Under the pieces are notes generated by a model. The model saw only the letters and a program-made list of their open reading frames with translations, was not told the origin of the DNA and searched no databases. 32,950 nucleotides of DNA, taken from Candidatus Bathyarchaeota archaeon (GTDB lineage: Archaea > Thermoproteota > Bathyarchaeia > Bathyarchaeales > Bathycorpusculaceae). A program made the position numbers and the translations under genes. Location of the stretch: assembly GCA_937873375.1 (NCBI GenBank), contig CALMWK010000072.1, forward strand, positions 1-32,950, given 5' to 3'. Shown here in pieces: positions 8,006-23,617 of the stretch (the first letter of the stretch is position 1; each line of letters starts with the position of its first letter).

Positions 8006-8010
8006 AAGCT

Positions 8011-9432: not shown

Positions 9433-10406
9433 GTGAAACCGAAGAGGCGGCTGCAACAGTGATGAGGCTACTTAAGGCGAACCTGCGCGTAGTCAAAGAC
9501 GACGGCGGTTTAGCCAGCATAAATGTGGTTAATGAGTTTCAGAACGCCCAAGCCATCAAGGGCTTTGACGGACAGGTCACGGTGGGTTTTGCGGAAAGCG
9601 CTGACCAGAAAATGGAGTTATCGGGAAAATGGCGCAAACGACTACAAGTTCTGCGGGTGAACGTGTGGACATCCGAGCAGGCGGGCTCGGGCGAGTCAGG
9701 CAGGGTTATGCGGGGCAAAATCGTGGAGGAAGTCAACCGTGTCGTGCGGCAGAAACGCAGCCGCCCCAACGAAACCACTTATGAGTTTTACAATTTGGGA
9801 GCGGGCAGTCAAACTCACAAAGCCTACTTTGGCAACGGCGAAGCTTCACCGTATACGCCAAACGTTTGGACGGAGCTGGCAAGTGAGAACTACCAGAGGT
9901 TGTGGGCAAGCGACGACAACCGCCTTCAGCTAAGCGCAGATGAAGATGGCGCGTATGCAACGGTGCTTTTCGGCTTCAAACTGGAATGCAGAGAGAAAAC
10001 TGCCAAAAAAATAGCCGTGTCCTTTGAAGGCTTTGGCACCGCAGCAGGTGGCGACGGCGTCACCGTCAAAGCGTGGAATAGTGAAAGTTTCTTATGGGAA
10101 AACGCGCAGTCAGACGGCGCTGGAGGAACCGACGAAACCATAACCATCACCCTAACAGCGAACGTGCCAAACTACATTGATGAAGACGGGTACGTGTGGC
10201 TGCTTACCCGAACAACCAACCCCGCCAGCGCCCAATCACCCGCGGTTCTGCACTGCGACTACGTGTCCTGCACTGTCACAGTGAACGGCATAACGTACTG
10301 CGACGTTGTCAACTACCGAGATTTAGACCGCGTAGACGGTGTGCCCTTCATTTTCCGCACCGAGTTTGTGGTGAAGTCATGGTTCTTTGAGAACATAGGA
10401 GTGTAA
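9429..10406 (+). CDS. Tail terminator-like protein with inserted beta-sandwich domain
   Basis: 325 residues; ATG 9429 overlaps the previous stop by 4 bp. Residues about 1-115 (GQVTVGFAESADQ, LQVLRVNVWTSEQ, RVMRGKIVEEVNRVVRQ) and about 289-325 (YRDLDRVDGVPFIFRTEFVV) together look like one small tail-terminator/tail-completion fold of the type found between neck and tail-tube genes. Between them, about 117-288, lies a separate beta-rich domain (LFGFKLECREKTAKKIAVSF, TVKAWNSESFLW, ETITITLTANVPNYI, DGYVWLLTRTT), like lectin or galactose-binding beta-sandwiches. This insertion would project from the tail-head junction. Family assignment of both parts is by pattern and position. Confidence 0.5.
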   Translation: MSETEEAAATVMRLLKANLRVVKDDGGLASINVVNEFQNAQAIKGFDGQVTVGFAESADQKMELSGKWRKRLQVLRVNVWTSEQAGSGESGRVMRGKIVEEVNRVVRQKRSRPNETTYEFYNLGAGSQTHKAYFGNGEASPYTPNVWTELASENYQRLWASDDNRLQLSADEDGAYATVLFGFKLECREKTAKKIAVSFEGFGTAAGGDGVTVKAWNSESFLWENAQSDGAGGTDETITITLTANVPNYIDEDGYVWLLTRTTNPASAQSPAVLHCDYVSCTVTVNGITYCDVVNYRDLDRVDGVPFIFRTEFVVKSWFFENIGV

Positions 10407-10413
10407 ATTTGAA

Positions 10414-11271
10414 ATGCCAGAAACATACAGCGCCCATGAAAGCCGCGTCTACTACGTGGACGAGGTGGCTTTTGGGCAAACCCCAACCAACCCCTCCATG
10501 CTAGGCATCCCAGCGGAAAGTTTGGAGCCTGCGGTGAATCCGGGCAACATTAAGCTGCGCGGAGTCGGCAGCGTGGATTTGCAAGCCATCAAAAAAGGAG
10601 TGCGAGCGCCAAGCCTGAAAATCTCGTATCCGCTGCCAAGCGAAGCACCCATAAACTTCTTGCAGTACGCCAGAAACGAACTTGACAAGTCCCTGAGCAT
10701 CCAGCTGCTTTACTATAAGGGTGTTTTTGCGTCTGCCACCGACATAATTTCGCTTTTGTACACGGGGTGCAAATTCCAAAAACTAACCGTGGAGTGCAGC
10801 ATCGAAGATGTTGTGAAAGCGATCGTGGAGTTGCTTGCCCAAAACCTCACCGCGGGCACCGACAAATTTTCAGGTGCCACCTACGCCGACTACGGCGGAG
10901 CGATACCGTTCTATGAGAGCTACATCAAAAAAGACGCCGCCACGCTTGAGCGCGTCACCGACTGGAAATTCACGGTGGAAAACAACCTCAAACAGGTCCC
11001 AGTCATACGCAGCACCAACGGCCACATCCTGAAGTACTTGCCGCATAGGCACCGCAACCTCACAGGCGAAGTGGTTTTCGAGTTTGAAAGCAAAGAAGAA
11101 TTCGACAACATCATCAACGACGCCGAGTTCACGTTGGAGTTTGGCTTGGGCGGAACCAGCAAAGCGGTCTTTAGCAACTGCAAATGGGAAAACGTGGCGG
11201 CACCCACCCGTATTGAAGAGTTGGTGAGCCTGAAAGCGGAGTTTGTCGCCAAAACCTTCACCGTAACCTAA
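10414..11271 (+). CDS. Major tail tube protein
   Basis: 285 residues. Starts MPETYSAHESRVYYVDEVAFGQTP, the N-terminal 'E-x-FGxTP' opening common to tail tube proteins of siphoviruses including archaeal ones. The remainder is beta-rich with repeated strand patterns (SLKISYPLPSEAP, LTVECSIEDVV, DWKFTVENNL, GEVVFEFESKEEF, TLEFGLGGTSKAVFSNCKWE, LVSLKAEFVAK). The GTSKAVFSNCKW...SLKAEF block near the C-terminus is typical of the tube beta-barrel. It follows the tail terminator and precedes the tail-assembly chaperone, the standard order. It should polymerise into the tail tube around the tape measure. Confidence 0.75.
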   Translation: MPETYSAHESRVYYVDEVAFGQTPTNPSMLGIPAESLEPAVNPGNIKLRGVGSVDLQAIKKGVRAPSLKISYPLPSEAPINFLQYARNELDKSLSIQLLYYKGVFASATDIISLLYTGCKFQKLTVECSIEDVVKAIVELLAQNLTAGTDKFSGATYADYGGAIPFYESYIKKDAATLERVTDWKFTVENNLKQVPVIRSTNGHILKYLPHRHRNLTGEVVFEFESKEEFDNIINDAEFTLEFGLGGTSKAVFSNCKWENVAAPTRIEELVSLKAEFVAKTFTVT

Positions 11272-11283
11272 AGGTGAAACCAG

Positions 11284-11757
11284 ATGCGCAAAGAAACCTT
11301 AGAAATCGGCGCCGAATACGGCGAAGAATACACTGGCAGATACGTTTTCCAAGAAATCACTTGGGCAAAACGCAGCCGCATCATCCAAAAACACACCAAG
11401 TACCACCCTGTTTCTGGGCAAGTGGTGAGCAGCGACTTCATAGCCATACAAGCTGAAACCATCTGGGCAGCCCTAAAAGAGCAACCACAAAACCAGCCGC
11501 TAACGCTGGAGAAACTTTTGGGCGAAGAAAACGGCATCCCCATCGCATTGGGCGAGTTGCTTTCTCAAACCGTCAACAACCTGTGCGCTGTCACACGGGA
11601 GGAGACGGCTTTTTTATCCGAGCCATCAGACGCAAAAAACCCAACCCCGCAATCACAGATTTCCGCTTATGCAAAGAATTCGGTTGGCTCCCAACAGACC
11701 TCGCAAGGCAGCCAGCCAGAACCATCCAGCAGTTCATCATCATCCTCAACGAAGTAG
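11284..11757 (+). CDS. Tail assembly chaperone, short form (gpG-like)
   Basis: 157 residues with an aggtga ribosome site at 11272-11277. The body (GRYVFQEITWAKRSRIIQKH, then SSDFIAIQAETIWAALKEQP and LTLEKLLGEENGIPIALGELLSQTVNNL) fits the alpha-helical gpG-type chaperones that bind tape measure and tube protein. After residue 111 the zero frame runs on into a low-complexity Gln/Ser-rich tail ending in eight serines and Lys, which is unlikely to be folded. This is expected if the useful C-terminus is in the -1 frame, as described for the fused product. Position between tube and tape measure supports the role. Confidence 0.7.
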   Translation: MRKETLEIGAEYGEEYTGRYVFQEITWAKRSRIIQKHTKYHPVSGQVVSSDFIAIQAETIWAALKEQPQNQPLTLEKLLGEENGIPIALGELLSQTVNNLCAVTREETAFLSEPSDAKNPTPQSQISAYAKNSVGSQQTSQGSQPEPSSSSSSSSTK

Positions 11758-11798
11758 ACAGGCAAACCGAGGAGGAAGCCAAGAAACATGAGCGTTGA
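11284..11798 (+). CDS. Tail assembly chaperone, long form made by -1 frameshift (gpGT-like)
   Basis: Reading switches by -1 at 11610-11616, so codons run 11284-11616 and then resume at 11616 (atc cga gcc ...) to the stop at 11796-11798. The product is about 171 residues. The T-type extension (IRAIRRKKPNPAITDFRLCK, then EFGWLPTDLARQPARTIQQF, then LNEVDRQTEEEAKK) is a sensible helical domain and overlaps the next gene start by 11 bp. Many tailed phages make G and GT this way from two overlapping frames between tube and tape measure; the layout here is the same. Frameshifting itself is inferred. Confidence 0.7.
11610..11616 (+). promoter_or_regulatory. Slippery heptamer T_TTT_TTA for -1 frameshifting
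   Basis: In the zero frame the codons are gct ttt tta (Ala-Phe-Leu), giving X_XXY_YYZ with X=T, Y=T, Z=A. This is the same heptamer (U UUU UUA) used by HIV-1 gag-pol. It lies where the zero frame of the chaperone turns to low complexity and where the -1 frame gains a conserved-looking helical domain. I did not find an obvious stable hairpin or pseudoknot just downstream; a purine-rich ggaggaga 10 bases upstream (about 11598-11605) could act as a stimulatory Shine-Dalgarno-like element. Confidence 0.75.
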
Positions 11799-12156
11799 AG
11801 TCCAAATTGACCTTGCAGGCGCGGAGGAGTTCGCGCAGGCACTCAACCGTTTCGATAGTGGTATGCAGAGGCAAATACAGCAGCGCCTTGGCGAGTGGGC
11901 TGAGAATGCCAAAACCCAAGCTACACAGTTGGCACCAGAACGCACGGGTTACTTGCGAAGCACCATCTACACAAAAACCAGGCAGTGGCAGGCAGAAGTT
12001 GGTGCAGAAGCAGCCTACGCCGCAGCCGTGGAATTTGGCACCCGCTACGCCCAAGCGAAACCTTTCATTCAACCTGCACTCGAACAGGGTTTGCCTCAGC
12101 TGGAACCTGCCCTGCTGGGCGCTTTGGATTCGGCTAAGATGGAGGCGGACCTGTGA
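11788..12156 (+). CDS. HK97 gp10-like tail/neck morphogenesis protein
   Basis: 122 residues. Shows the HK97 gp10-like signature: APERTGYLRSTIYT ... EVGAEAAYAAAVEFGTRYAQ and AKPFIQPALEQ. In bacterial phages gp10-like proteins act in head-tail joining or tail completion. Here the gene stands after the chaperone and not before the tube gene, an uncommon order. ATG 11788 overlaps the frameshifted chaperone end by 11 bp, and its own stop overlaps the following GTG start, so the whole row is translationally coupled. Confidence 0.8.
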   Translation: MSVEVQIDLAGAEEFAQALNRFDSGMQRQIQQRLGEWAENAKTQATQLAPERTGYLRSTIYTKTRQWQAEVGAEAAYAAAVEFGTRYAQAKPFIQPALEQGLPQLEPALLGALDSAKMEADL

Positions 12157-12695
12157 GTTTTCGGGAAATAGCTGTCACCATTCGAGCCGTCAACCGTGCC
12201 AGTTCGGAATTTAGCCGCATCCAAACTGACGCGCAAAGCCTCGCCACACAAGTGAAGAGTTTAGGTTCAACGCTTGCTGGACTGGGCGCCGCAGGAACCG
12301 TTGTTGGTTATGTTGCGAACCAGTTCGGTGTTTTGAACGATGCTCAGGCGAAGGTGTTCAACAGCGCCATGATGGTTGTCAGCGTGATGGGTATGTTTAT
12401 GCGTACCAGCACAGGCGTCGCCGTCGCCCAGAAGGTTTACGCAGCAGCAACCGCGTTTGCCACCACCGTCCAAAACAGCCTAAACATCAGCTTCGCCACG
12501 TTCCTCGCACTAACAGGCGTAGGCATAGCGGTCATCGTTGCGGCAGCCGCTGCCATGATAAGCTTCGCCAGCAGCATGAACAAAGCCACCGCCAGCGTGC
12601 AGAACTTCAACAGTGCCACCTCAGAGACACCCCAGCATACTCGTAGTATACAGCGGGCGGGCGAAACCGAGCTTTACAGGCGGGGAGTCGAATAG
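12153..12695 (+). CDS. Very short tape measure-like protein
   Basis: 180 residues with a GTG start overlapping the previous stop. N-terminal helical region (FREIAVTIRAVNRASSEFSR, then DAQSLATQVKSLGSTLAGLG) followed by two strongly hydrophobic stretches (MMVVSVMGMFMRTSTGVAVA; FLALTGVGIAVIVAAAAAMI). This is the composition of siphovirus tape measures: coiled coil plus hydrophobic segments. Position between chaperone/gp10 and hub is right. Tape measures are usually several hundred to over a thousand residues, so this copy is either a genuine short-tail version or has suffered an in-frame internal deletion; the charged C-terminus (IQRAGETELYRRGVE) looks abruptly joined. Confidence 0.55.
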   Translation: MSFREIAVTIRAVNRASSEFSRIQTDAQSLATQVKSLGSTLAGLGAAGTVVGYVANQFGVLNDAQAKVFNSAMMVVSVMGMFMRTSTGVAVAQKVYAAATAFATTVQNSLNISFATFLALTGVGIAVIVAAAAAMISFASSMNKATASVQNFNSATSETPQHTRSIQRAGETELYRRGVE

Positions 12696-12698
12696 TCA

Positions 12699-14285
12699 AT
12701 GAGTGTTACCGCACCAACCGTGGCGGTGGTTTTCGGCTCTGTAGCGCCACCCCAAGGCGACATCGTTGAGTTGAAGGTGCATTTGGGCTGCACCAAAGAG
12801 GTCGGCAGCTTCGAGGCAACGTTGCAGAATTTTGGCGGCAAATACAGCCCCAACGGCACATACCCGCTGAGCGTGGGCGTGGATGGCAGCTTAAGTGTGG
12901 GTCGCGGTGTTACCTGTCCGTTGTTGATGACTTGCCGCGTAGAAGGCATAAAATACGAATCGTCACCCGTGGAGAACTACGTGCATGTTTCGGGCAGGTG
13001 TTGGGGTGAGCGGTTGTTCCGCAGAGTCATCACGAAAGCATACACCAACGTGAAGGGTGAAGACATCGTCAAAGACCTGCTGGACTACTATGTGGGTTTG
13101 AGCCACAACCGCGGCGGCGTAGAACTGGTAGAGGCAACGGATACGACATATGCAAGCCTAAACTACGAAGACACCCCAGTCATCGACGTGCTCAAGTACG
13201 TGGCGGAGAGCGCAGACAAGCAGGGCGTCATAGGCTACGACTTTCGCGTGGCGCCTGACGGCAAATTCGAGTTCTTCTCCAAAGGCACCAAACCCAGCAC
13301 CGTCAGCCTTGGCGAGCGCATAGAATACTACGAGTACACCAGTGATGTGTACAGGGTGCGAAACAAAATTGCGGTTTACGGCGCCGCCGACAAAAGCGAG
13401 CCAGCCGACAAGGATGCGTGGACTGAGAGCTTGACACCGTCGGATGGCGTTTGGACTGCCATAGCGGGCACCGTCAGCTTTGACACCGCGGTCATGGTGA
13501 AGGGTTCGGGCAGCATAAAAACTTTCATAGACGGTTTTCAGTATGCGGGTTGCGTGTTCACCCTAAACGGCGACAAACTCGTAGACACCGCAGCTTACCC
13601 AGTTTTGAACCTGTGGCTCTGCACAGAAACCGCCTATAACGGGAATGTGACCCTGTCGCTGTTTGACAACTTGGACCGCTCAGCTACACGCGAGTTCACG
13701 GTGGGGGCTGGCAAATGGTTCCAAACGCAGGTAGAAGTGGGTGCGGGGGTTGCGGATTTGTGGCAGGTGCAAAGCGGCTTTGACTGGACAAAGATTTGGC
13801 GTGTGCGGGTGATTTGCTGGTTTGGCGATGTGGGCACGGGCGCTTTTTGGGTGGATGGCTTGTTTTTTGGGGGGCGCCGCTATGGCAACGTGCAGGAGAA
13901 CACGAGTAGTCAGGGCAGTTTTGGGTTGCGGGAGCTGGTGGAGGTTAACGAGGAGTTGTGGAGCGACACCGAGTGCACTGGGCGGGCGAATGCGTTGCTG
14001 GCGAATCTGAAGGACCCAGCGGAGAGCCTGACGCTGCAGAGTTCAGTTCTGGATTTTGGCGCCTCGCCAGTATTGGCTGGTGATGTGGTGCATGTTGTGT
14101 TGCCTGTGGAGGGTGTGGAAGCGGATTTTCGCGTTTTGAGCGTGGAGTATCGTGTAGATGGAAAAGCGCAAACGCTTGATGTCACGTTGGAGTTGGGACG
14201 GGAAGCGCCGCTACTTGCAGATTACGTGTATGCGTTGCGTGCGAAAACCGACAGTTTAAGCAGGTACAAAGCAGCGAGGCGGTAG
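12699..14285 (+). CDS. Tail hub/baseplate protein with carbohydrate-binding-like insert
   Basis: 528 residues. Residues about 1-230 follow the pattern of gp27/gpD-type hub proteins: a beta domain (DIVELKVHLG ... SFEATLQNFGGKYSP), the rim segment (VHVSGRCWGERLFRRVITKA, with EDIVKDLLDYYV), and a domain with VIDVLKYVAESADKQG. The hub fold resumes at about 397 (LRELVEVNEELWSD ... LLANLKDPAESLTL ... GDVVHVVLPVEGVEADFRVL). Between them, about 237-396, is a jelly-roll-like beta region (DGVWTAIAGTVSFDTAVMVK, VLNLWLCTETAY, TVGAGKWFQTQVEV, AFWVDGLFFGG) resembling carbohydrate-binding modules. It would form the tail tip. Start ATG is 3 bp after the preceding stop. Confidence 0.6.
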   Translation: MSVTAPTVAVVFGSVAPPQGDIVELKVHLGCTKEVGSFEATLQNFGGKYSPNGTYPLSVGVDGSLSVGRGVTCPLLMTCRVEGIKYESSPVENYVHVSGRCWGERLFRRVITKAYTNVKGEDIVKDLLDYYVGLSHNRGGVELVEATDTTYASLNYEDTPVIDVLKYVAESADKQGVIGYDFRVAPDGKFEFFSKGTKPSTVSLGERIEYYEYTSDVYRVRNKIAVYGAADKSEPADKDAWTESLTPSDGVWTAIAGTVSFDTAVMVKGSGSIKTFIDGFQYAGCVFTLNGDKLVDTAAYPVLNLWLCTETAYNGNVTLSLFDNLDRSATREFTVGAGKWFQTQVEVGAGVADLWQVQSGFDWTKIWRVRVICWFGDVGTGAFWVDGLFFGGRRYGNVQENTSSQGSFGLRELVEVNEELWSDTECTGRANALLANLKDPAESLTLQSSVLDFGASPVLAGDVVHVVLPVEGVEADFRVLSVEYRVDGKAQTLDVTLELGREAPLLADYVYALRAKTDSLSRYKAARR

Positions 14286-14289
14286 ACCT

Positions 14290-14469
14290 GTGGTGGATAA
14301 GCGCAGGCGCGTAGTCGTGGAAATCCGCGAGGACTTACATCGGGAGCTGCGCAAACTGGCGTTGTTAAATGATTTGCGGATTTATGAGGTGGCGAATGCG
14401 GTTTTGGAGGATTGCTTGGGTGATGAGGAACGTGTGCGGGGTTTGGTTAGGCGGTTGAAGGTTTCTTAG
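14290..14469 (+). CDS. Small ribbon-helix-helix-like DNA-binding protein
   Basis: 59 residues from GTG 14290 (a second GTG follows at 14293). The sequence RRRVVVEIREDLHRELRKLA gives an N-terminal beta strand of alternating basic/hydrophobic residues followed by helix A, and YEVANAVLEDCLGDEE gives helix B: the MetJ/Arc/CopG plan. It begins 4 bp after the hub gene stop, so it is the last gene of the tail operon. It could regulate virion gene expression or act as an antitoxin without a visible partner. G/T-rich spacer follows. Confidence 0.6.
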   Translation: MVDKRRRVVVEIREDLHRELRKLALLNDLRIYEVANAVLEDCLGDEERVRGLVRRLKVS

Positions 14470-14631
14470 GTTTGGTTGTTTGTTTAGTGTTTGTTTTGTT
14501 TTGTGGGTGCATGTTTGGTTTTTTGGTTTTGGGTTGTGTTTTCGGTTAGTTTTTCATACTTTTTATGAACATTTCTCAAATCGGTTTATATATTTTGGAA
14601 GCTAAGGGATAATTAAAAACAAACAGGATGT
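14470..14631. other. G/T-rich intergenic spacer with a promoter at its right end
   Basis: No gene is visible. The first ~90 bases are strikingly poor in A and C on the plus strand and contain T-runs that could terminate the tail operon. At 14585-14592 tttatata is a good TATA box; a start near 14615 would serve the small gene at 14632. The phrase aaacaggatgt just before that gene recurs at 14761. Confidence 0.5.
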
Positions 14632-14760
14632 ATGAAAAACATGGAAATTGGAACATTGGTCGCAGTTTGCTTGGGCTTGGCCGCCATGCCGATTGCCTCC
14701 TTAGAATATGTGGTTTCTCGTGCGAGACGGGAAGCTGCCCGCAAAATCGAACCCCTATAA
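14632..14760 (+). CDS. Small single-span membrane protein (42 residues)
   Basis: ATG 14632 to TAA at 14760. The product has one hydrophobic segment (TLVAVCLGLAAMPIASLEYV) followed by a basic/acidic helix (SRARREAARKIEP), the shape of small membrane regulators or holin-like peptides. It is preceded by a TATA box and aaacaggatgt. The same phrase occurs right after its stop and leads to a second mini-frame, 14768-14821 (17 codons, then TGA). An alternative ATG at 14628 reads another frame that lacks membrane character. No family is recognised; the case rests on promoter plus hydropathy. Confidence 0.4.
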   Translation: MKNMEIGTLVAVCLGLAAMPIASLEYVVSRARREAARKIEPL

Positions 14761-14863
14761 AAACAGGATGTGTGTGATGTGGGAAGGATTAAACTGGACG
14801 CTAATAATTAAGAAAACGTGAAGGGATGGGGAGCTTTGCTGGTCTTCCCTGTCTCTTTTTTGT

Positions 14864-15148
14864 TTATTTTGTCTGTTTTTTGTTGAGTACAATTTGCATT
14901 ATAGCCGCTAACACGGTTAGGGTGCCCAGCCAGAGTACGAGGTCAACGGCGAGGTTTACGGTGTCGACGTACCAGATGTTTGCGGGTCCTGCGAAGGTGC
15001 TGGTTGTGTGCGTTGCATAAGTGAGGGGAAACCCGTAGTCGGTGTGGATGTTGTCTGGCCAGTCGTATTGGAAGCCTGCGACCATGGCGAGGATGGTTAT
15101 GATGGCGAAGATTGCAATGAAGAGGGTGGTGTTTAGCGTTTTGTTCAT
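14864..15148 (-). CDS. Two-span membrane protein, unknown
   Basis: 94 residues. TM1 is TLFIAIFAIITILAMVAGFQ, followed by an external loop rich in Asp, Tyr, Thr (YDWPDNIHTDYGFPLTYATH), then TM2 (LAVDLVLWLGTLTVLAAIMQ) and a short NKKQTK tail. No catalytic or family motif is evident. Its end faces the small genes at 14632-14821 across a T-rich gap (14853-14880) that can serve as a terminator for both sides. Coding strand is A/C-rich like the two genes to its right. Confidence 0.5.
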   Translation of the reverse strand: MNKTLNTTLFIAIFAIITILAMVAGFQYDWPDNIHTDYGFPLTYATHTTSTFAGPANIWYVDTVNLAVDLVLWLGTLTVLAAIMQIVLNKKQTK

Positions 15149-15185
15149 ACTAGAAGGTTGAGGGGTTTGGTTTTTAGTTTTTTGG

Positions 15186-15428
15186 TTATCGGGGTTTGGG
15201 TCGGAGGCGTTTTTTGTTGGTGAGCAGGGCTACGGCTTGGGCGTGGCTGCATCGGCCTTTGTTTAGGTAGCCTTGGCAGTTGCAGCTGAGTTTGCCTGTG
15301 TGGTCTTGGGCGATGGTGTAGGTGCCGTGTTCGCCGATGACGTTGTAGATTCCGTTGCCTAGGTTTTCGATTCTGCCAGATTCTATGAGGTAGCGGGCTT
15401 TTTGGTGCATGATGTCGTCGTGTGGCAT
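15186..15428 (-). CDS. SWIM zinc-finger protein
   Basis: 80 residues. The motif LSCNCQGYLNKGRCSHAQAV is CxC-x(n)-CxH, the SWIM zinc finger, preceded by two short strands (GNGIYNVIGEHGTYTIAQDH) that are usual in SWIM domains. SWIM fingers bind DNA or protein and occur alone in many archaeal small proteins. The C-terminus is basic (NKKRLRPKPR). Its partner is not evident; CBS and membrane genes beside it are on the same strand but separated by more than 30 bp. Confidence 0.8.
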   Translation of the reverse strand: MPHDDIMHQKARYLIESGRIENLGNGIYNVIGEHGTYTIAQDHTGKLSCNCQGYLNKGRCSHAQAVALLTNKKRLRPKPR

Positions 15429-15555
15429 GTTTGTCCCGGTTGGTTGTGTTTGGTAGAGTATTTGGGTGAGGTTTGATTAAAACTGTTTGCTGGGGGTTGT
15501 TTGGGTTTTGAAAAAAAGGCTAAATGGGGGACAGTTGCGCCCCATTGGGGGTGTT

Positions 15556-15993
15556 TTATCGTACGCGTTTGTAGCCTGGTTTGTAGAGTTCGGCTAGTTC
15601 TGCTAGCTTTTCTGGGGCTGCTACGATGATGTTGTCTGCGGTGAGTACGCCGACGAGTTCGCCTTGTGCGCCTGTGACTGGTAGGTGTTTGACGCCCCAG
15701 TGGTTCATCATTTGGACGGCTTCGGGGATGGTTTTGTTTTGGTCGATGGTGAAGATGGGGTTGGTGTAGATCATGCGGGCGATGACGGAGTTGGTTGCGG
15801 TGTTTTGGGTGATGAGGCGGACGATGAGGTCGTGTTCGGTTATGATGCCTGTGGGTTTGTTTTGCATTACGACCATGACGTAGCCTATGTCTTTTTCTGC
15901 CATAAGGTTGACTACTTTGGATACGCTTGTTTCGTTGTCCACAACTGGGACAGATTTAGTCATGATATCGCATACTTTGATGGTGCTTGCCAT
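15556..15993 (-). CDS. CBS-domain pair protein
   Basis: 145 residues made of two CBS motifs in tandem: KVCDIMTKSVPVVDNETSVS ... GYVMVVMQNKPTGIITEHDL and ARMIYTNPIFTIDQNKTIPE ... KHLPVTGAQGELVGVLTADN. CBS pairs bind adenine nucleotides and usually sense energy state, alone or through a partner. With no other domain, this is a stand-alone sensor. A gagga ribosome site lies just before ATG 15993 and an A/T-rich element (about 16025-16045) may be its promoter. It looks like a host gene sitting inside the presumed proviral segment. Confidence 0.85.
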   Translation of the reverse strand: MASTIKVCDIMTKSVPVVDNETSVSKVVNLMAEKDIGYVMVVMQNKPTGIITEHDLIVRLITQNTATNSVIARMIYTNPIFTIDQNKTIPEAVQMMNHWGVKHLPVTGAQGELVGVLTADNIIVAAPEKLAELAELYKPGYKRVR

Positions 15994-16138
15994 TAAGATT
16001 CCTCTAATGTTGTATGAGAAAAGACCCCGTCATTTATCTATTTTTTGTTATTTGCTAAAATGCCATGTATGTTTAGGCGGTTAGTTTTGGTTAAAAGTTA
16101 TTAGGCTGCATCTGCTTAGTCTTTTTGAGGGGTAAAGT

Positions 16139-16372
16139 TTGACTGCTCAAGCAAGTTTGGATGAGGTTTACGCGGAGGTTAAGCGTATGCGGCGGGAGCT
16201 CAAGTCGCTGGAGAAGAATCTCTCAAACTTAGAGGCGACGCTGATTCCTGAGGAGAAAGCGAGCCCTGAAGAGATAAAAGAGCTCAAAGCCCTCAAGCGT
16301 GAAGCCTTGCGAGGCGAGTGTGTTTCCTTGGAAGATGTTCTGAAGAAGCACGGGGCAAAGAAAAGTGCCTAA
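16139..16372 (+). CDS. RelB-like antitoxin
   Basis: 77 residues, TTG start behind gaggggt. Highly charged helical protein: a coiled-coil segment (VYAEVKRMRRELKSLEKNLS, then NLEATLIPEE) and a C-terminal segment (LKALKREALRGECVSLEDVL, KKHG) of the kind that wraps a RelE/ParE toxin. The stop overlaps the toxin's GTG by 8 bp, the normal antitoxin-first layout. Assignment depends mainly on the toxin next door. Autoregulation is expected from family knowledge, but a DNA-binding fold is not clear. Confidence 0.65.
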   Translation: MTAQASLDEVYAEVKRMRRELKSLEKNLSNLEATLIPEEKASPEEIKELKALKREALRGECVSLEDVLKKHGAKKSA

Positions 16373-16634
16373 GTACCGCCTAGTTTTTCATCGAAAAGCC
16401 GAAAAAGCGCTGGATGGGTTAGATGAGAAAACTAAGCATGTGGTGCTTGAGGATATTTTGTGTTTAGCGGATTTTACTGGGCTTAGAAGTCGTTTGGATA
16501 TTGTTAAGATGCAGGGGCAAGGGAACTTTTATCGGCTACGCACTGGCAAGCGGAGAGTTATGTTTGCCGTGGATAAAAAGTCAGAAACAATAATCATCCT
16601 AAAAATCGAGCACCGAGAAAGAGCATACGAGTAA
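16365..16634 (+). CDS. RelE/ParE-family toxin
   Basis: 89 residues from GTG 16365. Shows the family plan: YRLVFHRKAEKALDGLDEKT (strand and helix), then SRLDIVKMQGQGNFYRLRTG, KRRVMFAVDKKSETIIILKI and a final EHRERAYE. The Y-R-L-R-x-G-x-x-R segment and the terminal H-R-x-x-x-Y are typical of RelE-type mRNA interferases. When freed of antitoxin it should cut ribosome-bound mRNA or otherwise stop growth. In proviral cargo such pairs serve maintenance or abortive infection. Confidence 0.85.
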   Translation: MPKYRLVFHRKAEKALDGLDEKTKHVVLEDILCLADFTGLRSRLDIVKMQGQGNFYRLRTGKRRVMFAVDKKSETIIILKIEHRERAYE

Positions 16635-16741
16635 CACAGAAAGGCGAAACAGTCACCCAGAAATCACCAACCTAACCACACTTTGACTGGCGTAGTTTTT
16701 AGTGAAAAGTCTTAAATCAGAAGTGCCCCAGTGTTTTAACT

Positions 16742-17035
16742 ATGCAGAACGTCGAAGACATCAAGCGCGCGCTTTCCTCGAATAAGGCAGAGTTGAGGCT
16801 GAAGTTCAAAGTAAAAGACATCGGTGTTTTTGGTTCCTACGTGCGCGGCGAGCAGAAGCGGGCTAGCGATGTTGATGTTCTGGTGGAGTTCAAAGAGCCC
16901 GTGGGGCTTTTTGAGTTCGTCGCGCTGGAGAATTATTTGTCTGATTTGCTGGGTGTCAAAGTGGATTTGGTCTCCAAAAAAGCGTTAAAGCCCCACATTG
17001 GCAAGCGCATATTGCAGGAAGTTGTCATGGTATGA
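16742..17035 (+). CDS. mntA: MNT-type minimal nucleotidyltransferase (antitoxin of MNT/HepT pair)
   Basis: 97 residues. Carries the nucleotidyltransferase motif GS-x10-D-x-D exactly (GSYVRGEQKRASDVDVLVEF) and a later third carboxylate region (LLGVKVDLVSKKAL). In characterised MntA/HepT systems MntA adds AMP to the HepT toxin near its HEPN active site, blocking it. The stop overlaps the HepT start by ATGA. A weak TATA-like cttaaat about 30 bp upstream (near 16709) probably drives both genes independently of the RelBE-like pair. Confidence 0.85.
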   Translation: MQNVEDIKRALSSNKAELRLKFKVKDIGVFGSYVRGEQKRASDVDVLVEFKEPVGLFEFVALENYLSDLLGVKVDLVSKKALKPHIGKRILQEVVMV

Positions 17036-17382
17036 AACGCCGTGACTACCGCGATTACCTGCAGGATATTTTGGACGCTGTGGATGATGTGGAAGTTTTT
17101 GTTGGCGACATGAGTTTTGAGGAGTTCAAAAAAGACAGAAAAACCTTGAATGCGGTGGTTCGCAGCATCGAAATTATCGGTGAAGCTTCCAAGAAACTAC
17201 CCGACTCGTTAAAGGCAAAGTACAGGGAGCTTCCGTGGAAGGAAATGAGCGGCATGAGAGACAAACTAATACACGCCTACTTTGGAATGGACACCGAAAC
17301 CATCTGGAAAACAGTAAAAGAAAACATCCCACCACTGAAAAAGTCAATCCAGAAAATGCTCAAAGACCAAGAAAAACAATAA
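17032..17382 (+). CDS. hepT: HepT-like HEPN toxin (DUF86)
   Basis: 116 residues, all helical. Motif MRDKLIHAYFGMDTETIWKT contains the R-x4-H-x-Y signature of DUF86/HepT proteins; the Tyr is the expected site for AMP addition by the MNT partner. Upstream helices (YLQDILDAVDDVEVF, AVVRSIEIIGEASKKLP) also match. HEPN toxins are RNases that act on tRNA or mRNA. Coupled by ATGA to MNT at 16742. A 23-codon basic frame downstream (17398-17469) is too weak to call. Confidence 0.9.
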   Translation: MKRRDYRDYLQDILDAVDDVEVFVGDMSFEEFKKDRKTLNAVVRSIEIIGEASKKLPDSLKAKYRELPWKEMSGMRDKLIHAYFGMDTETIWKTVKENIPPLKKSIQKMLKDQEKQ

Positions 17383-17631
17383 CCCACTATCAATAAAATG
17401 TTGGCAAAACGAAGCGCCCAAGCCAAGAAAAAACCAGAAAACCTCAACCCCCTAAAAAAACTGAAATAGCCCCTTTGCAGTTACGCACTTCACCACTAAG
17501 GCAGAAACAGGCAACCACACCACACATTTTTTAACGCTTTATTGAAATATTTACTAAAATTTTAAATAGATATTGAATTAATTATTAATTGGCGTATGGT
17601 TACACGATGCTCGAGAAATCGAACTAAACGT

Positions 17632-17706
17632 GCCCGTGTAGCTTAGCCCGGACAGAGCGAGGGGACTCGCATCCCCTAGACGGGGGTTCAAATCCCCCCA
17701 CGCTTA
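17632..17706 (+). tRNA. Degenerate tRNA-like gene (possible pseudo-tRNA or att-derived)
   Basis: The D-arm (GCTT/GAGC with the A-G...GG loop) and T-arm (GGGGG TTCAAAT CCCCC) are clean. Other parts are not. The acceptor stem pairs only at its inner four positions (CGTG with CACG); positions 1-3 (GCC) face CTT at 70-72 and do not pair properly. The anticodon arm can form a five-pair AGGGG/CCCCT stem but leaves an eight-base loop (ACTCGCAT), giving either CGC (Ala) or, with a different register, TCG (Arg). A T5 tract at 17716-17720 and an A/T-rich upstream region at about 17555-17592 look like a real transcription unit. No 3'-CCA match is encoded (ACCC). Confidence 0.5.
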
Positions 17707-17784
17707 CCCTTTACCTTTTTCGACATTAAATGTTAATAATGGGAAAATAACGTCACACTTCTTCATATGGAAGATATATGTGCG

Positions 17785-18546
17785 CTAAGGCGAGTTTACC
17801 TTTTGCTCTTTCAATTCCTTGATTAGATTAATTACTTCTCTTATTGACTGAGCATCTTTGGCTTCCACATTGACATTGATAGTGTAGGATAATAGACCTA
17901 AAGATGCGGGTTGGTTTCTTATAACTAATGAAGCATGTTGAGGGAGGTCACTCGGAGATGCGTTCGAGGCGTTTTGGGAAACATTTTGCTGATTGGTCTC
18001 GTTTTGAGGCGCAGTAATTTGTTGGAAAGAAATACTATCTTCCGAACGGTCAAAATTCAGCAAGCCCTTACCAGCGAAAAGAACACAAAGGCGTTTCCCG
18101 CCTTCACGCACAAAATTGGAACTCCATTTTGCTTGAGCTAGTTTCCTAAGGTGTTCACCAAAGCCTAAAGGCGTACCTCTTTTACCTCCTTGTTCTGCTA
18201 TATACTTCTGCAGTTGAGAATACAAGCTATGGCGCTTCAAAATTTGTTGCCATAAATTAATTGCAGCGGCAGTATTTTTTTCTTCCAACGCAAGGGCTAT
18301 TTCCCTACCGATTGGAGAAAGCGCAAATGGAGAACGCTCACCTTCAAGTAAACCTACATAGCTTAAGAAAGAGCATGCTCTCCCAACACAGACGAAATCT
18401 CCAAGAGAATTATCTTTGGCGACTATTTCTTTTGATGTTGCTGCTTTCCCCACTCTGTAAATTGATGAGATAATCTTATCTAAATGCACATCAAAATCAA
18501 TAGGAGCACAAAAATGAGGAAGTTTCACTTTTTCAGAGGCAGACAT
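17785..18546 (-). CDS. Winged-helix protein of a putative nuclease pair
   Basis: 253 residues. N-terminal half is helical with winged-helix character: VHLDKIISSIYRVGKAATSK, then FLSYVGLLEGERSPFALSPI and GREIALALEE. This is followed by GGKRLCVLFAGKGLLNFDRS. The general look is of DUF5343-like proteins, but I am not certain. About residues 178-210 are Gln/Asn/Ser-rich and probably a flexible linker; the C-terminus (LSYTINVNVEAKDAQSIREV, INLIKELKE) is a strand-helix module seen at the end of related archaeal proteins. It is the second gene after the nuclease at 18581, 34 bp downstream, so the two are probably co-transcribed. Convergent with the tRNA-like gene. Confidence 0.55.
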   Translation of the reverse strand: MSASEKVKLPHFCAPIDFDVHLDKIISSIYRVGKAATSKEIVAKDNSLGDFVCVGRACSFLSYVGLLEGERSPFALSPIGREIALALEEKNTAAAINLWQQILKRHSLYSQLQKYIAEQGGKRGTPLGFGEHLRKLAQAKWSSNFVREGGKRLCVLFAGKGLLNFDRSEDSISFQQITAPQNETNQQNVSQNASNASPSDLPQHASLVIRNQPASLGLLSYTINVNVEAKDAQSIREVINLIKELKEQKVNSP

Positions 18547-18580
18547 GTATTAACCTTATTCACCATAAGGATATAAGTTT

Positions 18581-19573
18581 TTAAATTAGCTCAGTACACA
18601 ACCCATTTTGCGCTAGATTTTGAATGATTTTTTGTGGGCTTGGGTTTTTTTGTTTCCACCTTATTTGAAGCGCGTTTAGCAAAGTCATACTGCTGACGAG
18701 AACTACATTAATGGATTCGGCAAGAGCAATTGCATTCGCGTGAAAACAAGGCGCCCTCGCGTTAGGGCATTTCAATCTGAAGGCATTCCCCACAAAAATC
18801 ATCCTCTTGCCTTTGAACTCGGGTTTTGATTGAGATTTTGAAATTTGGTTTATGTCATTTTCGCCGATTTGTTTGTTTTCACCTTTGGTTTCAATAATGC
18901 CCTTAAAGTCACTAAAAGAAATTTCAATGTCTGGAATCCCAGAAGGTTTCTTTGGCAAGTTCTTGGCTTCAAATCCCAATTCAGAGAATGCGTCCTTTAC
19001 GAGTTCTCTGAAAGGATGCCCGGTTTCGTAATATAATGCTTTGAATCTTTCGATTCGTTTACTTTCTTCGAAAATAGGGAAATCGTGAATCCAAAGAGGT
19101 ATTTTGCTATGTTTCTCAATTTCCGCTTGCCCTACAGGCGTTAAGCTAATCTGTCCTTTTGCTGTTTCCAAAATTCCGGTGCGTGTCGATAAATCAATAA
19201 ATGACCTAAACATTAAGCGCCTTTCTCGCTCAGGGACAGTCGTATTGCAACAAATGGAAAGCATACTGAATATTTGTTCTTCAGTTTCAGGACCATAAAG
19301 AACCCGGCGGAAAAGCTCGAAGTATTCAGACTGTATTAGTCCAATGGTCAATGCCTTGTCATCTGCTCCGAAAACAAAACGCTTTCCTATAGAGGTCAAA
19401 GTGTATGTTGAGTCGACTAACCCTAAGAAATTGAAAGCGTTAGAAATCGCCGTGAACTCGGCTTTCCTGTATGAATACTTCCAAATGTCCCATTCAAGTT
19501 TGTCTTGCCCTTTTTGCCCAAGTAACCTCCGAAAACGTAAAAGGTCAACGAAAGATACAGATTTAGGATACAT
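18581..19573 (-). CDS. Winged-helix/PD-(D/E)XK restriction-endonuclease-like protein
   Basis: About 330 residues from ATG 19573, which has aaaggt eight bases upstream; an in-frame TTG at 19582 is less likely. Numbering from that TTG: residues 1-75 are a winged helix (WKYSYRKAEFTAISNAFNFL, GLVDSTYTLTSIGKRFVFG), a second one spans about 115-155 (RSFIDLSTRTGILETAKGQI), and about 185-305 is the nuclease. Its core is PSGIPDIEISFSDFKGIIET followed by KG, giving D218, E231 and K233 of the D-x(n)-ExK site, with a helix before it (HPFRELVKDAFSELGFEA) and a second strand (KRMIFVGNAFRL). Such winged-helix-nuclease fusions act in restriction or abortive defence. It diverges from the packaging operon. Confidence 0.7.
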   Translation of the reverse strand: MYPKSVSFVDLLRFRRLLGQKGQDKLEWDIWKYSYRKAEFTAISNAFNFLGLVDSTYTLTSIGKRFVFGADDKALTIGLIQSEYFELFRRVLYGPETEEQIFSMLSICCNTTVPERERRLMFRSFIDLSTRTGILETAKGQISLTPVGQAEIEKHSKIPLWIHDFPIFEESKRIERFKALYYETGHPFRELVKDAFSELGFEAKNLPKKPSGIPDIEISFSDFKGIIETKGENKQIGENDINQISKSQSKPEFKGKRMIFVGNAFRLKCPNARAPCFHANAIALAESINVVLVSSMTLLNALQIRWKQKNPSPQKIIQNLAQNGLCTELI

Positions 19574-19669
19574 TGAACCCAACCTTTGAATATGTTCTAA
19601 CGCATTTATCTTTTAGCTGTTTTGCATCAACTTTATAGCTGTTACTAATTTATGGTGTATTGAGGGAAA

Positions 19670-19738
19670 AAATTGGTAAATTTGTGAATTTATCAATTTG
19701 TAAATTGGTGAATTGCTAAATTTCACGACATTTTATAT
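19670..19738. promoter_or_regulatory. Repeated dyad operator and TATA box between the nuclease pair and packaging operon
   Basis: AAATTGGTAAATT (19670-19682), a 4-base spacer, AATTTATCAATTT (19687-19699): the arms pair over 13 positions with one G-T. A further direct copy, AAATTGGTGAATT, follows at 19702-19714, then ctaaattt. So three units of one 13-bp sequence alternate in orientation. Directly downstream is tttatat (19732-19738), a TATA box well placed for the ATG at 19774. A repressor binding here could block the packaging operon and perhaps the divergent nuclease gene; an iteron-type replication role is a less supported alternative. Confidence 0.65.
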
Positions 19739-19773: not shown

Positions 19774-20175
19774 ATGAAGGATGTATTAAACCAGATTAGT
19801 GGTTTAGCTGCAGGCGACCTCGTGGTGCTTGAGTGGCACGACGCAAGCATCGGCAAGAGCTTGAGCAATGGCATTAGCGGGATTGATGTGCCTGTGAAGA
19901 GCTGGGGCGTATTCATCGGCGTACTTGGGCAGAAGCGTAAGCATGCGGTTTTGGCGCAGAATGCGTTTCGGTACAGTGATGGCTTATTTGACATTGACTA
20001 CACCGCCATTCCCCTAACATGGACATCGGATGCAACAGTGATAGAGAAGGCGCATGTGGGCGCGGAAGAAGCAAGGGTGCTGCTGCACAGCTTTACCATT
20101 AACGAGAAAATGAAAGAAGGCAAAACCAGCTCTAATCGTTGCCGCAGACGGCAGATGAGGGTGCGTAACCATTGA
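19774..20175 (+). CDS. Unknown protein leading the packaging operon
   Basis: 133 residues. Beta-rich and soluble: LAAGDLVVLEWHDASIGKSL, then GIDVPVKSWGVFIGVLGQKR, KHAVLAQNAFRYSDGLFDID and YTAIPLTWTSDATVIEKAHV, followed by a helical, then basic tail (SSNRCRRRQMRVRNH). The opening resembles a small SH3-like or NlpC-like barrel segment (AGDLVVLEW...WGVFIGV...HAVLAQN), but I see no Cys-His catalytic pair, so no function is assigned. It is first behind the dyad operator and overlaps the next gene by 4 bp. It could be an early viral regulator or a host factor captured by the operon. Confidence 0.5.
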   Translation: MKDVLNQISGLAAGDLVVLEWHDASIGKSLSNGISGIDVPVKSWGVFIGVLGQKRKHAVLAQNAFRYSDGLFDIDYTAIPLTWTSDATVIEKAHVGAEEARVLLHSFTINEKMKEGKTSSNRCRRRQMRVRNH

Positions 20176-20429
20176 CTGACTGGGTAAAACGCGCCCTGAC
20201 CCGAAGAACAACCGACAGGACAGCCGTAAACGAGTTTTCGGAGGTTCCGCCCAGCGAGCGGCTGGTGCTCGGAGTAAAATTCGCCATGGCGCTGACTTTT
20301 AGCTTGACGGCGTTGGAGATTGCGCATCTGGCGCTGTTGGGCAGGTGGAACAGTGAAGTTTTCGCTGCCATCACGGGCATGACTGGCACCATAACGGGTG
20401 TTTTGATTTCTCAGAGGACAGGTGACTGA
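20172..20429 (+). CDS. Small holin-like membrane protein
   Basis: 85 residues with a TTG start overlapping the previous stop. Charged N-terminus (MTDWVKRALTRRTTDRTAVN), then two hydrophobic segments, LVLGVKFAMALTFSLTALEI and VFAAITGMTGTITGVLISQR. Size, two spans and location just before terminase genes fit a holin or another small viral membrane protein. Function is inferred from shape only. It overlaps the small terminase candidate by 8 bp. Confidence 0.45.
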   Translation: MTDWVKRALTRRTTDRTAVNEFSEVPPSERLVLGVKFAMALTFSLTALEIAHLALLGRWNSEVFAAITGMTGTITGVLISQRTGD

Positions 20430-20754
20430 AACCGTGACTGAACCAACGGTAGAACCCCCAGTAGATTCTATATATAGAGGGGGGGTAGGTCAAGCAGAGC
20501 AGACCCCCCGAACAGCCAAAGACCTCATAGAAACCGAATGGAAAATCATTGACAAACTTCAAAAATTAGCTACAAAAGCACGAAGCGACAAATCAAAAGG
20601 GTTCTACTACCAAACCCTCGCAGGACACATACGAACCCTCGCCACGCTTCTCAAACTCCACGGACAAACAAACCAAACAACCGACATAGCAAAACTTCTC
20701 AGCGAAATCAACAGTGAAGCCAAGAAACTCGCAAAGAGGCTCAAACAAAAATGA
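20422..20754 (+). CDS. Candidate small terminase subunit
   Basis: 110 residues, GTG start. A flexible N-terminus (about 1-28, VTEPTVEPPVDSIYRGG) is followed by a long helical region: DLIETEWKIIDKLQKLATKA, FYYQTLAGHIRTLATLLKLH and IAKLLSEINSEAKKLAKRLK. Small terminases are helical, oligomeric DNA-recognition proteins encoded immediately before the large subunit, and this one overlaps the large-subunit ATG by 4 bp. I see no clear helix-turn-helix, so position is the main argument. Confidence 0.5.
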   Translation: MTETVTEPTVEPPVDSIYRGGVGQAEQTPRTAKDLIETEWKIIDKLQKLATKARSDKSKGFYYQTLAGHIRTLATLLKLHGQTNQTTDIAKLLSEINSEAKKLAKRLKQK

Positions 20755-22127
20755 ACCTTGAGCCCCAAGCAGAAACACAACTCAAAGAAAAACCAGTCTT
20801 CTTCGCAAAACAACTCCTCGACTTTGAACCCTTCAACTACCAAGAAAAACTCCTCAACGACCCAAACCAACGCATCATAGCCTGCATGGGCAGACAAACA
20901 GGCAAAACCACAACCATAGCCGCCAAAGCAATCCACTACGCATACACCCACAAAAAAACAACAACCCTCATCATCAGCCCATCAATGCGCCAAAGCATGA
21001 TAATGTTCGACAGAATCCTCACCCTCATCTACAACAACCCCATCCTAAGCAACAGCATAAAACGCAAAACCCACACCATCATCCAACTCACAACCCAAGC
21101 AAAAATAATCGCACTCCCATGCAGCGAAAACTTACTACGAGGATACACCGCAAACCTAGTCATCGCAGACGAAGCATCATTCATACCCGAAAAAATCATA
21201 ACCGAAATCATCTACCCCATGCTCAGCACCACAAACGGCACAGCTATCCTCCTATCCACACCATGGGACAAAAACCACTTCTTCTACAAAGCCTTCCTCA
21301 ACCCAACCTACAGCACCCACAAAATCCCCTCAAACCAAAACCCACTCATCCCAAACGCATTCCTAAAAGAAATGCAGCAAAACATGACCACAGACGCATA
21401 CCAACGCGAATACCAAGCAGAATTCACCGAAGCCCAAACCAGCTACTTCCAACAAGAACTCATCCGCCAATGCATAGAACACGCACAAAAAATCAACCTC
21501 GAACCCATAACAGACATCGAACAAACCATCCCCAAAGCAGAATACTACGCAGGATTAGACCTCGGAAAACTCCAAGACTACAGCGCCATAGCCATCATCC
21601 AAAAAACCAACGAAGTCCTCAAACTGGTCTACACCCACCAATTCCCACTCGAAACACCCTACACAGAAGTCATAGCCACAACAAACCGCATCCACCAACA
21701 ATTCCACCTACAAAAACTGCTCATAGACCAAACAGGCATAGGAGAACCAATCCTAGAAGCCCTAAAAGAACAAAACATACCCGCAGAAGGCGCAACCCTA
21801 ACCCAAGACACCAAAACCGAACTCCTAACCCACCTCAAACTCATCATGCAACAACAAAAACTCGCCATCCCCTACGACAAACAACTCTGCCAACAAATCA
21901 ACGACCAACAATACGCCTACACCAAAAACGGCAAACTCACTTTTCAGCACCCACCAAACACACACGACGACCAACTCTGGGCACTCGCACTCGCAACATA
22001 CGCCACAAAAACCCAACCATCACCGCACCTGTGGATAGTCGCAAAAACCGCACGCACAGGCAAAACCAAACTCCAAAACCTACGCAAAAAACTCCTCAGC
22101 CACAAAACCACAGGAGACACACGATAA
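20751..22127 (+). CDS. terL: Large terminase subunit (ATPase-nuclease)
   Basis: 458 residues, near the usual length. ATPase: Walker A MGRQTGKT at 46-53, Walker B LVIADEAS at 136-143, coupling motif ILLSTPW at about 166-172. RNase H-like nuclease: D270 in AGLDLGKLQDYSAI, D326 in LLIDQTGIGEP, and D406/D407 in HDDQLWALALA, the three acidic positions for two-metal cutting. All key residues are present, so the protein looks intact. It pumps viral DNA into the capsid through a portal and cuts it; no portal gene is seen here. The coding strand is very poor in G (4 G in the 60 bases from 21841). It ends two bases before the ABC-GNAT gene. Confidence 0.95.
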   Translation: MNLEPQAETQLKEKPVFFAKQLLDFEPFNYQEKLLNDPNQRIIACMGRQTGKTTTIAAKAIHYAYTHKKTTTLIISPSMRQSMIMFDRILTLIYNNPILSNSIKRKTHTIIQLTTQAKIIALPCSENLLRGYTANLVIADEASFIPEKIITEIIYPMLSTTNGTAILLSTPWDKNHFFYKAFLNPTYSTHKIPSNQNPLIPNAFLKEMQQNMTTDAYQREYQAEFTEAQTSYFQQELIRQCIEHAQKINLEPITDIEQTIPKAEYYAGLDLGKLQDYSAIAIIQKTNEVLKLVYTHQFPLETPYTEVIATTNRIHQQFHLQKLLIDQTGIGEPILEALKEQNIPAEGATLTQDTKTELLTHLKLIMQQQKLAIPYDKQLCQQINDQQYAYTKNGKLTFQHPPNTHDDQLWALALATYATKTQPSPHLWIVAKTARTGKTKLQNLRKKLLSHKTTGDTR

Positions 22128-22129
22128 CC

Positions 22130-23617
22130 ATGCACAGACGCAAAACCCGATACTACGAGTATCTCCACATAACCAAGCTCAAACGCACCTACAACAAAAA
22201 AACCGCAACGTTCACGTTCAACATCAGCTACCAAACCACACCCACCCAACGCACAAAACGCACCACCGAAGTCGCAGAAGCATTCGGACTGGGCGCAGAC
22301 CAAACCCAACGCTTCACACTTTATGATAACACGGAAATCAAAATCCGCCCAACAGACATTGTGCTCATCACAGGCGACAGCGGTAGCGGAAAAAGCGCAC
22401 TCCTAAAAGCCATACAAACCGACCTCGCAACGCAAGCCCAAGACACCAAAACGCTGGACATAGAACCAGACAGACCCATAATCGAAACCCTCGGCAAAAC
22501 CACCACAGAAGCCCTAGAAATTCTCAGCAAAGTCGGCTTAAACGACGCCTTCCTCTTCCTACGCACCTACGCGGAGCTGAGCGACGGACAAAAACACCGA
22601 TACCAAATCGCCCGCCTAGCCGAATCACCAACGCAATGGTGGCTACTAGACGAATTCACATCTACGCTGGACAGGGACACAGCCAAAATCGTCGCCTACA
22701 ACCTCCAAAAACTCGCCCGCAAACAAGGCAAAGCCGTCATAGCCGCAACCACCCACAACGACCTCACAGCAGACCTCAAACCAAACGTGCACATCCACAA
22801 ACGCTTCGGCAAAGAAATCACCATAAAATACCATAAAAACGCCAAAGCAGAGCAGTGCAGCCTAACCAAACAAACCACCATCCAAGAAGGCACATACCAA
22901 GACTACAAGCAGCTTAGCCAATTCCACTACCGAGCTGCACGTTGCCCAGCACCCAGAAAAATCTTCAAACTCACACGCAAACGCCAAACCATAGGCGCAA
23001 TCGTCTACAGCTACCCCACACCCTTCTGCTTCGGACGCAGCCAAATCTACAAAACCACCAACATACACCAACTGTACAAAGACGTCAGCCTCATCAGCCG
23101 CGTAGTGATTCACCCAAAATACCGCAGCATAGGCTTAGGCGAAAAACTCGTAGCCCAAACCCTCCCACTCGCAGGCACAGCACACGTTGAAACCATAGCC
23201 GTTATGGCAAAATACAACCCCTTCTTTGAACGAGCAGGCATGCAGAACATAGCCACCAGCCAACCGCACAAAACCGTCACAGACGCCCTAGACAACCTCA
23301 ACATATTAGGCTTCGACCCTGCGCTTCTGGCAAGCAACGCCTACACAGAACAACTAAACAACCCACACATCCGCAAAGCCGTCACAGACATCTTAGAAAA
23401 CCTGTCCAAGAAAAACCCAGCAGTCCGCAAACAAATCGCCAACACCAAAAAAATCTACCCAACACATGAAGAATTCACAGAAAAACTGCTCAGCCTAAAC
23501 GCTGTCCAACTTTCGGCAGCTCTCAAACGCCTAAGCTTCAAAGCCCAACCCAAAGCCTACCTGCACTGGCAAGCTACGGAGCAGGAAATGGCGAAGGCGC
23601 AGGCAAAGTCGAATTAG
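22130..23617 (+). CDS. ABC-type ATPase fused to GNAT acetyltransferase-like domain (COG2401-like)
   Basis: 495 residues from ATG 22130. A much longer open frame begins at 21119 inside terL, but it is a by-product of G/T-poor sequence and its extra part is low-complexity. ATPase domain: Walker A TGDSGSGKSA (about 81-90), signature LSDGQKHRYQIAR (about 150-162), Walker B WWLLDEFTSTLD, and His-switch ATTHND. GNAT domain: SLISRVVIHPKYRSIGLGEK with the P-x-YR-x-x-G-x-G acetyl-CoA loop. A C-terminal helical part follows. The same fusion is known in archaea as COG2401, of unknown role. It is co-transcribed with terL, suggesting a part in packaging or in modifying a viral or host target. Confidence 0.85.
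   Translation: MHRRKTRYYEYLHITKLKRTYNKKTATFTFNISYQTTPTQRTKRTTEVAEAFGLGADQTQRFTLYDNTEIKIRPTDIVLITGDSGSGKSALLKAIQTDLATQAQDTKTLDIEPDRPIIETLGKTTTEALEILSKVGLNDAFLFLRTYAELSDGQKHRYQIARLAESPTQWWLLDEFTSTLDRDTAKIVAYNLQKLARKQGKAVIAATTHNDLTADLKPNVHIHKRFGKEITIKYHKNAKAEQCSLTKQTTIQEGTYQDYKQLSQFHYRAARCPAPRKIFKLTRKRQTIGAIVYSYPTPFCFGRSQIYKTTNIHQLYKDVSLISRVVIHPKYRSIGLGEKLVAQTLPLAGTAHVETIAVMAKYNPFFERAGMQNIATSQPHKTVTDALDNLNILGFDPALLASNAYTEQLNNPHIRKAVTDILENLSKKNPAVRKQIANTKKIYPTHEEFTEKLLSLNAVQLSAALKRLSFKAQPKAYLHWQATEQEMAKAQAKSN

Follow-up and report, generated by a model that had tools for sequence, protein, structure and literature searches.

What is a pair of genes, one of which encodes a nuclease domain, doing directly beside the packaging operon of an element with tail and terminase genes in an archaeal genome? 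The window that we analysed is an entire 32.95-kb contig of that genome, and its ribosomal L13 and S9 genes show that the right end of the contig is chromosomal. A sequence-only reading of this DNA had singled out two ORFs, which we call A and B; both are present in the sequence, at the coordinates and on the strand given in Table 1. We asked how the pair came to this place, what the two proteins look like, and which function best accounts for them. Of the possible classes of function, defence is the likeliest, and several other explanations have to be weighed against it.

A variable slot between tail genes and packaging operon

The element comprises a set of tail genes and a packaging operon; among the genes of the window, none was recognised as coding for a capsid or portal protein. 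The two modules are separated by 5.5 kb, and the A/B pair adjoins the packaging operon. Besides B and A, the intervening segment holds small membrane, SWIM and CBS genes, two toxin-antitoxin-like pairs and a tRNA-like copy. In the related locus L067 a tail gene directly abuts p133, i.e., the slot is empty.

Table 1. Position of A, B and neighbouring features in the window.
Feature	Coordinates	Strand	Details
Tail genes	7652-14285		Tail tube, HK97-gp10-like and tail proteins
Inserted segment, tail gene to packaging operon	14286-19670	.	Absent in L067
Toxin-antitoxin pairs	16139-17382		ParE-like and MNT/HepT
tRNA-like copy	17632-17706		Rfam score 40.3 bits; only two of the 44 in the genome score lower
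Gene B	17785-18546	-	253 aa
Palindrome CCTTATGGTGAATAAGG	18554-18570	.	17 bp; lies between A and B, 7 bp before the ATG of B
Gene A	18581-19573	-	330 aa; ATG at 19573, in-frame TTG at 19582
Nuclease domain of A	18584-19108	-	D218...E231-x-K233...Q246 (TTG numbering); Mrr_cat profile and alignment
N-terminal half of A	19109-19573	-	Two wing-like motifs (GLVDSTYTLTSIG, GILETAKGQISLTPVG); motif scan and low-confidence model
AATT array	19671-19722	+	Seven AATT tetramers, exact 8-bp period; belongs to the packaging-operon promoter and not to A/B
Packaging operon	19774-23617	+	p133-p85-p110-TerL-ABC/GNAT protein; bounds the slot

The occupants of the slot differ between relatives. Beside p133, L064 encodes a ParA-like protein and a 176-aa neighbour in place of B and A, and these follow homologues of the first toxin-antitoxin pair and of the MNT gene that lie in the same place as here (11909-13037). 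HEPN-like and AbiEii-like genes are found there in L065 and L070, and in L069 (175-1560) an HNH-like gene broken by one in-frame stop codon. Near p133 in L066 (genome G012, 13435-14358) lies a gene whose 307-aa product contains a D...ExK motif (GHIDIFI...VEIKVG); this protein is nuclease-like by its motif, Pfam giving NucS_C only at E 0.075, and is perhaps another nuclease cargo. In L063 and L071 plain host genes take the place of the cargo, which indicates that the slot is not purely for defence; the boundaries of the element vary. Acquired cargo in a slot of this kind need not serve defence.

The composition of A and B sets them apart from the modules on either side. Their GC content is 0.39-0.40, against 0.54 in the tail module and 0.49 in the packaging module, and their GC3 is 0.40 (A) and 0.32 (B), against 0.52-0.67 in most other larger genes of the window (RelE, at 0.43, and NosD, at 0.44, are the exceptions). 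Given this AT-richness and the differing genes found there in relatives, A and B are acquired cargo in a variable place.

Several further observations concern the element itself. Its relatives are common: a TerL match was found in 51 of 90 family genomes, and nine related stretches are present in IMG/VR. Many genomes keep the p133-TerL operon; in some of them its neighbours are host genes (CCA-adding enzyme/ThpR, proteasome alpha), and neither tail nor capsid genes were recognised close by. The operon may be a packaging module that has been domesticated or reduced. The tape-measure-like protein of the window (12153-12695) has 180 aa and is 77% identical over its full length to its counterpart in L067 (6522-7061), so it seems genuinely short. 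The tRNA-like copy, directly beside A/B, has acceptor-stem mismatches and an odd anticodon loop and is possibly an integration scar or a pseudogene. A tRNA attachment site was considered and set aside, as no direct repeat of at least 11 bp to this copy occurs elsewhere in the window; nor were repeats marking the ends of the element found in the window.

The proteins encoded by A and B

A and B lie on the same strand with a gap of 34 bp, A being the first gene. Of its two possible start codons, the ATG is likelier than the TTG. The palindrome in the gap is the only such site in the window, where 0.06 would be expected with up to 3 mismatches allowed; it is a possible operator or RNA hairpin.

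The C-terminal domain of A is assigned by profile match to the Mrr-type PD-(D/E)XK family Mrr_cat (PF04471), with Pfam scores of 22.9 bits for the whole protein and 25.3 bits for the domain alone, above the gathering cut-off of 21 bits. Across an alignment of seven domains, that of A and those of six divergent homologues, D, E and the downstream Q never vary; the catalytic K is kept in three (A and two others) and replaced in the other four (EVE, EVT). These replacements mean that an Mrr-like domain is not always a nuclease. With D and E invariant and K variable, the set of catalytic residues is complete in A, though the family sometimes loses it. The intact core that had been read from the sequence (D218, E231 and K233) was recovered residue for residue.

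The N-terminal half of A drew nothing from Pfam but AAA_assoc_C at E 0.07, and no HTH model of Pfam, NCBIfam, PHROG or PADLOC matched A or B. A wing motif of the form GL(V/I)...xLTxxG (GL(V/I), a strand, then LTxxG), which we defined after inspecting A and B, occurs twice in A, once in B and never in the 7,391 residues of the 28 other window proteins; being drawn post hoc from these two proteins, it supports winged helices and does not prove them. AlphaFold2 models from single sequences, with no alignment, reached a pLDDT of 36 for A and 38 for B; within these low-confidence models the order of helices and strands would fit a pair of winged helices in A. We consider two winged helices in A and one in B probable. 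In B, the clear wing-like motif (GLLEGERSPFALSPIG) is followed by a linker rich in N, Q and S and then by a predicted strand-strand-helix C-terminus (E205-212, E220-227 and H232-251 in the low-confidence model), and no nuclease motif was seen.

The sequence-only reading had also placed winged helices in both proteins and a distinct strand-helix C-terminus in B. For the former the wing motif speaks in favour, against which stand the lack of an HTH profile match and the poor models; the latter agrees with the model, at low confidence only. Its pairing of a nuclease with a probable DNA-binding partner was borne out. The predicted nuclease pair is real and probably functional, with an unusual N-terminal arrangement and an unusual partner. 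Other identities were tried and dropped. The N-terminal half of A resembles B marginally more than shuffled sequence does, and with a Z of only about 2.1-2.2 the two were not accepted as clear paralogues; Pfam gives no support to a DUF5343-like identity of B; and DnaK-like matches to A are weak and were taken as chance.

A proposed role in restricting mobile DNA

No methyltransferase was found among the window ORFs scanned against Pfam (small ORFs covered in part), and to that extent the earlier claim that none lies nearby holds. Because these ORFs include no cognate methyltransferase, A/B is not a classical restriction-modification system. PADLOC, NCBIfam and PHROG gave no defence-family match for A or B, and in PADLOC-DB 2.0.0 no family matched either protein at E <= 10.

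We propose that A and B form a horizontally acquired two-gene operon, which sits as cargo in the variable slot of a tail/terminase element of viral origin within the archaeal chromosome. A would bind DNA through its N-terminal winged-helix region and cut it with its Mrr-type PD-(D/E)XK domain, acting with neither an NTP-driven motor nor a nearby gene for a partner methyltransferase. B would be a second winged-helix DNA-binding protein, devoid of a nuclease domain, that would either help A to recognise its target or restrain A and their own operon. The benefit would lie in the restriction of competing mobile DNA. We rate this account, in which an acquired pair binds and cuts DNA with the assistance or under the restraint of B, at a little less than an even chance. 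Its more specific form, a compact NTP-independent restriction system whose recognition is split over two winged-helix proteins, one of them with the nuclease, and which travels as cargo between tail and terminase genes, is rather unlikely.

Known enzymes share some of these traits. Mrr-type type IV enzymes (PF04471) have, like A, a C-terminal PD-(D/E)XK Mrr_cat domain, a DNA-binding-like N-terminus and no nearby methyltransferase; A differs from them in that it has no named Mrr N-terminal domain (no Pfam match), in that its unmatched N-terminus carries two wing-like motifs, and in its partner B, which is of an unmatched family. The 6mA-dependent enzymes DpnI, FcyTI and HhiV4I also combine a winged helix and a nuclease in one chain, are NTP-independent and usually have no methyltransferase next door (PMC11037411, PMC10101028), and HHPV4I is of archaeal virus origin (PMC11037411, PMC10101028). 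In DpnI and FcyTI, however, the winged helix follows the nuclease (PMC11037411), whereas in A the predicted winged-helix region comes before the nuclease, apparently consists of two winged helices and has no match among the models; moreover, A has no DpnI-type Pfam match and is accompanied by a second protein. Judged by domain order, A is not a DpnI-type enzyme. In FokI-like type IIS enzymes, a winged-helix-containing recognition part precedes the PD-(D/E)XK domain. A has the same order, recognition part first and cleavage domain last, but it lacks a FokI family Pfam match and a methyltransferase, and its catalytic domain is of the Mrr type.

The location has parallels as well. Defence genes were found in 11 of 38 archaeal head-tailed proviruses, Bathyarchaeia included (PMC11705971), and P2/P4-like phages have defence hotspots (PMC9122126). 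As in the slot described here, variable cargo, with nuclease-like and toxin-antitoxin genes among it, occupies a fixed place in a tailed-virus element (PMC11705971, PMC9122126). What sets the A/B slot apart from these is that a terminase operon encoding an ABC/GNAT protein borders it, in a window in which no capsid or portal gene was recognised.

Other explanations for the pair

A and B could be regulators, with several winged helices and a nuclease-like domain that serves mainly for binding or oligomerisation, e.g., in the control of the element's genes. A faces the promoter of the packaging operon, and a palindrome precedes B. The nearest relatives in the class that join a winged-helix-like region to an Mrr-like domain (L003, 655-3134, and L033, 505-2317, from two families) sit amid similar clusters of small HTH-like genes, and where A has ExK their domain reads EVE. 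In A, on the other hand, D, E and K are intact, and the remaining evidence comes from the AATT array, which lies some 13 bp ahead of the packaging operon's TATA box, has no equal elsewhere in the window, and had been taken by the sequence-only reading for an operator common to A and that operon. The array precedes p133 in L063, L064, L065, L066, L069 and L070, and in a shifted form in L071, and the genes upstream of it differ widely between these relatives. Since it is kept where A/B is absent, whatever the gene upstream, it is an element of the packaging promoter and offers no evidence about A/B, and the idea of a common operator had to be given up. As promoter and array exist without A and B, the pair is not needed for the control of the packaging operon, and we regard a regulatory role as unlikely. 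An operator that seems to be shared by two diverging genes is not evidence of their co-regulation; here, the array belongs to one side only.

Shorter AATT arrays were seen at four other places in the genome (G000:C69:19587, C96:8846, C164:36443 and C164:37234), one of which is upstream of ribosomal protein genes. In this archaeal family, period-8 AATT arrays may serve as promoter or regulator elements.

The pair could also resemble a toxin-antitoxin or abortive system, in which a nuclease toxin, A, is kept inactive by B and released upon infection or the loss of B. This would fit a two-gene operon with a spacing of 34 bp in a neighbourhood that holds ParE-like and MNT/HepT pairs, and a DNA-binding-like B could autoregulate through the palindrome. 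Yet the nuclease gene comes first, both proteins are large, their sequences bear no sign that B binds A, and the similarity of B to the N-terminal half of A is marginal. These points make such a pair quite improbable.

The distribution of A and B bears on the two explanations that fare worst. Full-length A was found in one of 256 genomes of the class and in one of 398 genomes sampled across the phylum, and B in one of the same 398, in each case their own genome alone. The further matches to B across the phylum at E <= 0.1 were noise (all at E > 0.01, several with stops), and the two neighbourhoods that we read consist of ordinary host genes. No relative was found in viral contigs with A, B or the alignments A3, A5 and A7 as queries, nor in two scans of genome contigs (with A and with A7), the negative with A7 being weak in that the second row of this alignment is a consensus that we wrote to widen the patterns. 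Plasmid and phage collections yielded neither A nor B. These scans of contigs, plasmids and phages used short patterns or single-sequence tblastn, by which remote relatives would be missed.

Likewise, none of the nine related IMG/VR stretches and no related genomic element has A or B. This absence, and a composition unlike that of the virus genes, make it very improbable that they are functions of the virus, i.e., a DNA-processing nuclease and an accessory protein by which the element would replicate, recombine or integrate, despite their position inside the tail/terminase element and the weak similarity of the domain profile to the solved structures of the PD-(D/E)XK DNA-processing enzymes NucS (E 0.37) and Hjc (E 1.4), matches that are consistent with a PD-(D/E)XK fold and say no more than that. 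Among the genomes and collections searched there is no second genome with the pair, and only the operon layout and the shared composition point to a joint system. That A and B are unrelated cargo, adjacent by chance and without joint function, would accord with a pair seen in one genome, whose adjacency has no comparison, but the common strand, the 34-bp gap, the matching low GC and the similar wing motif in both make it very unlikely.

If A and B do restrict competing mobile DNA, the repertoire of an uncultured archaeal lineage, whose defences are little known, would gain this two-protein nuclease cargo. Of more use, the p133-TerL operon with its AATT-array promoter marks a fixed place, on its upstream side, in which to seek further archaeal genes for defence and conflict.
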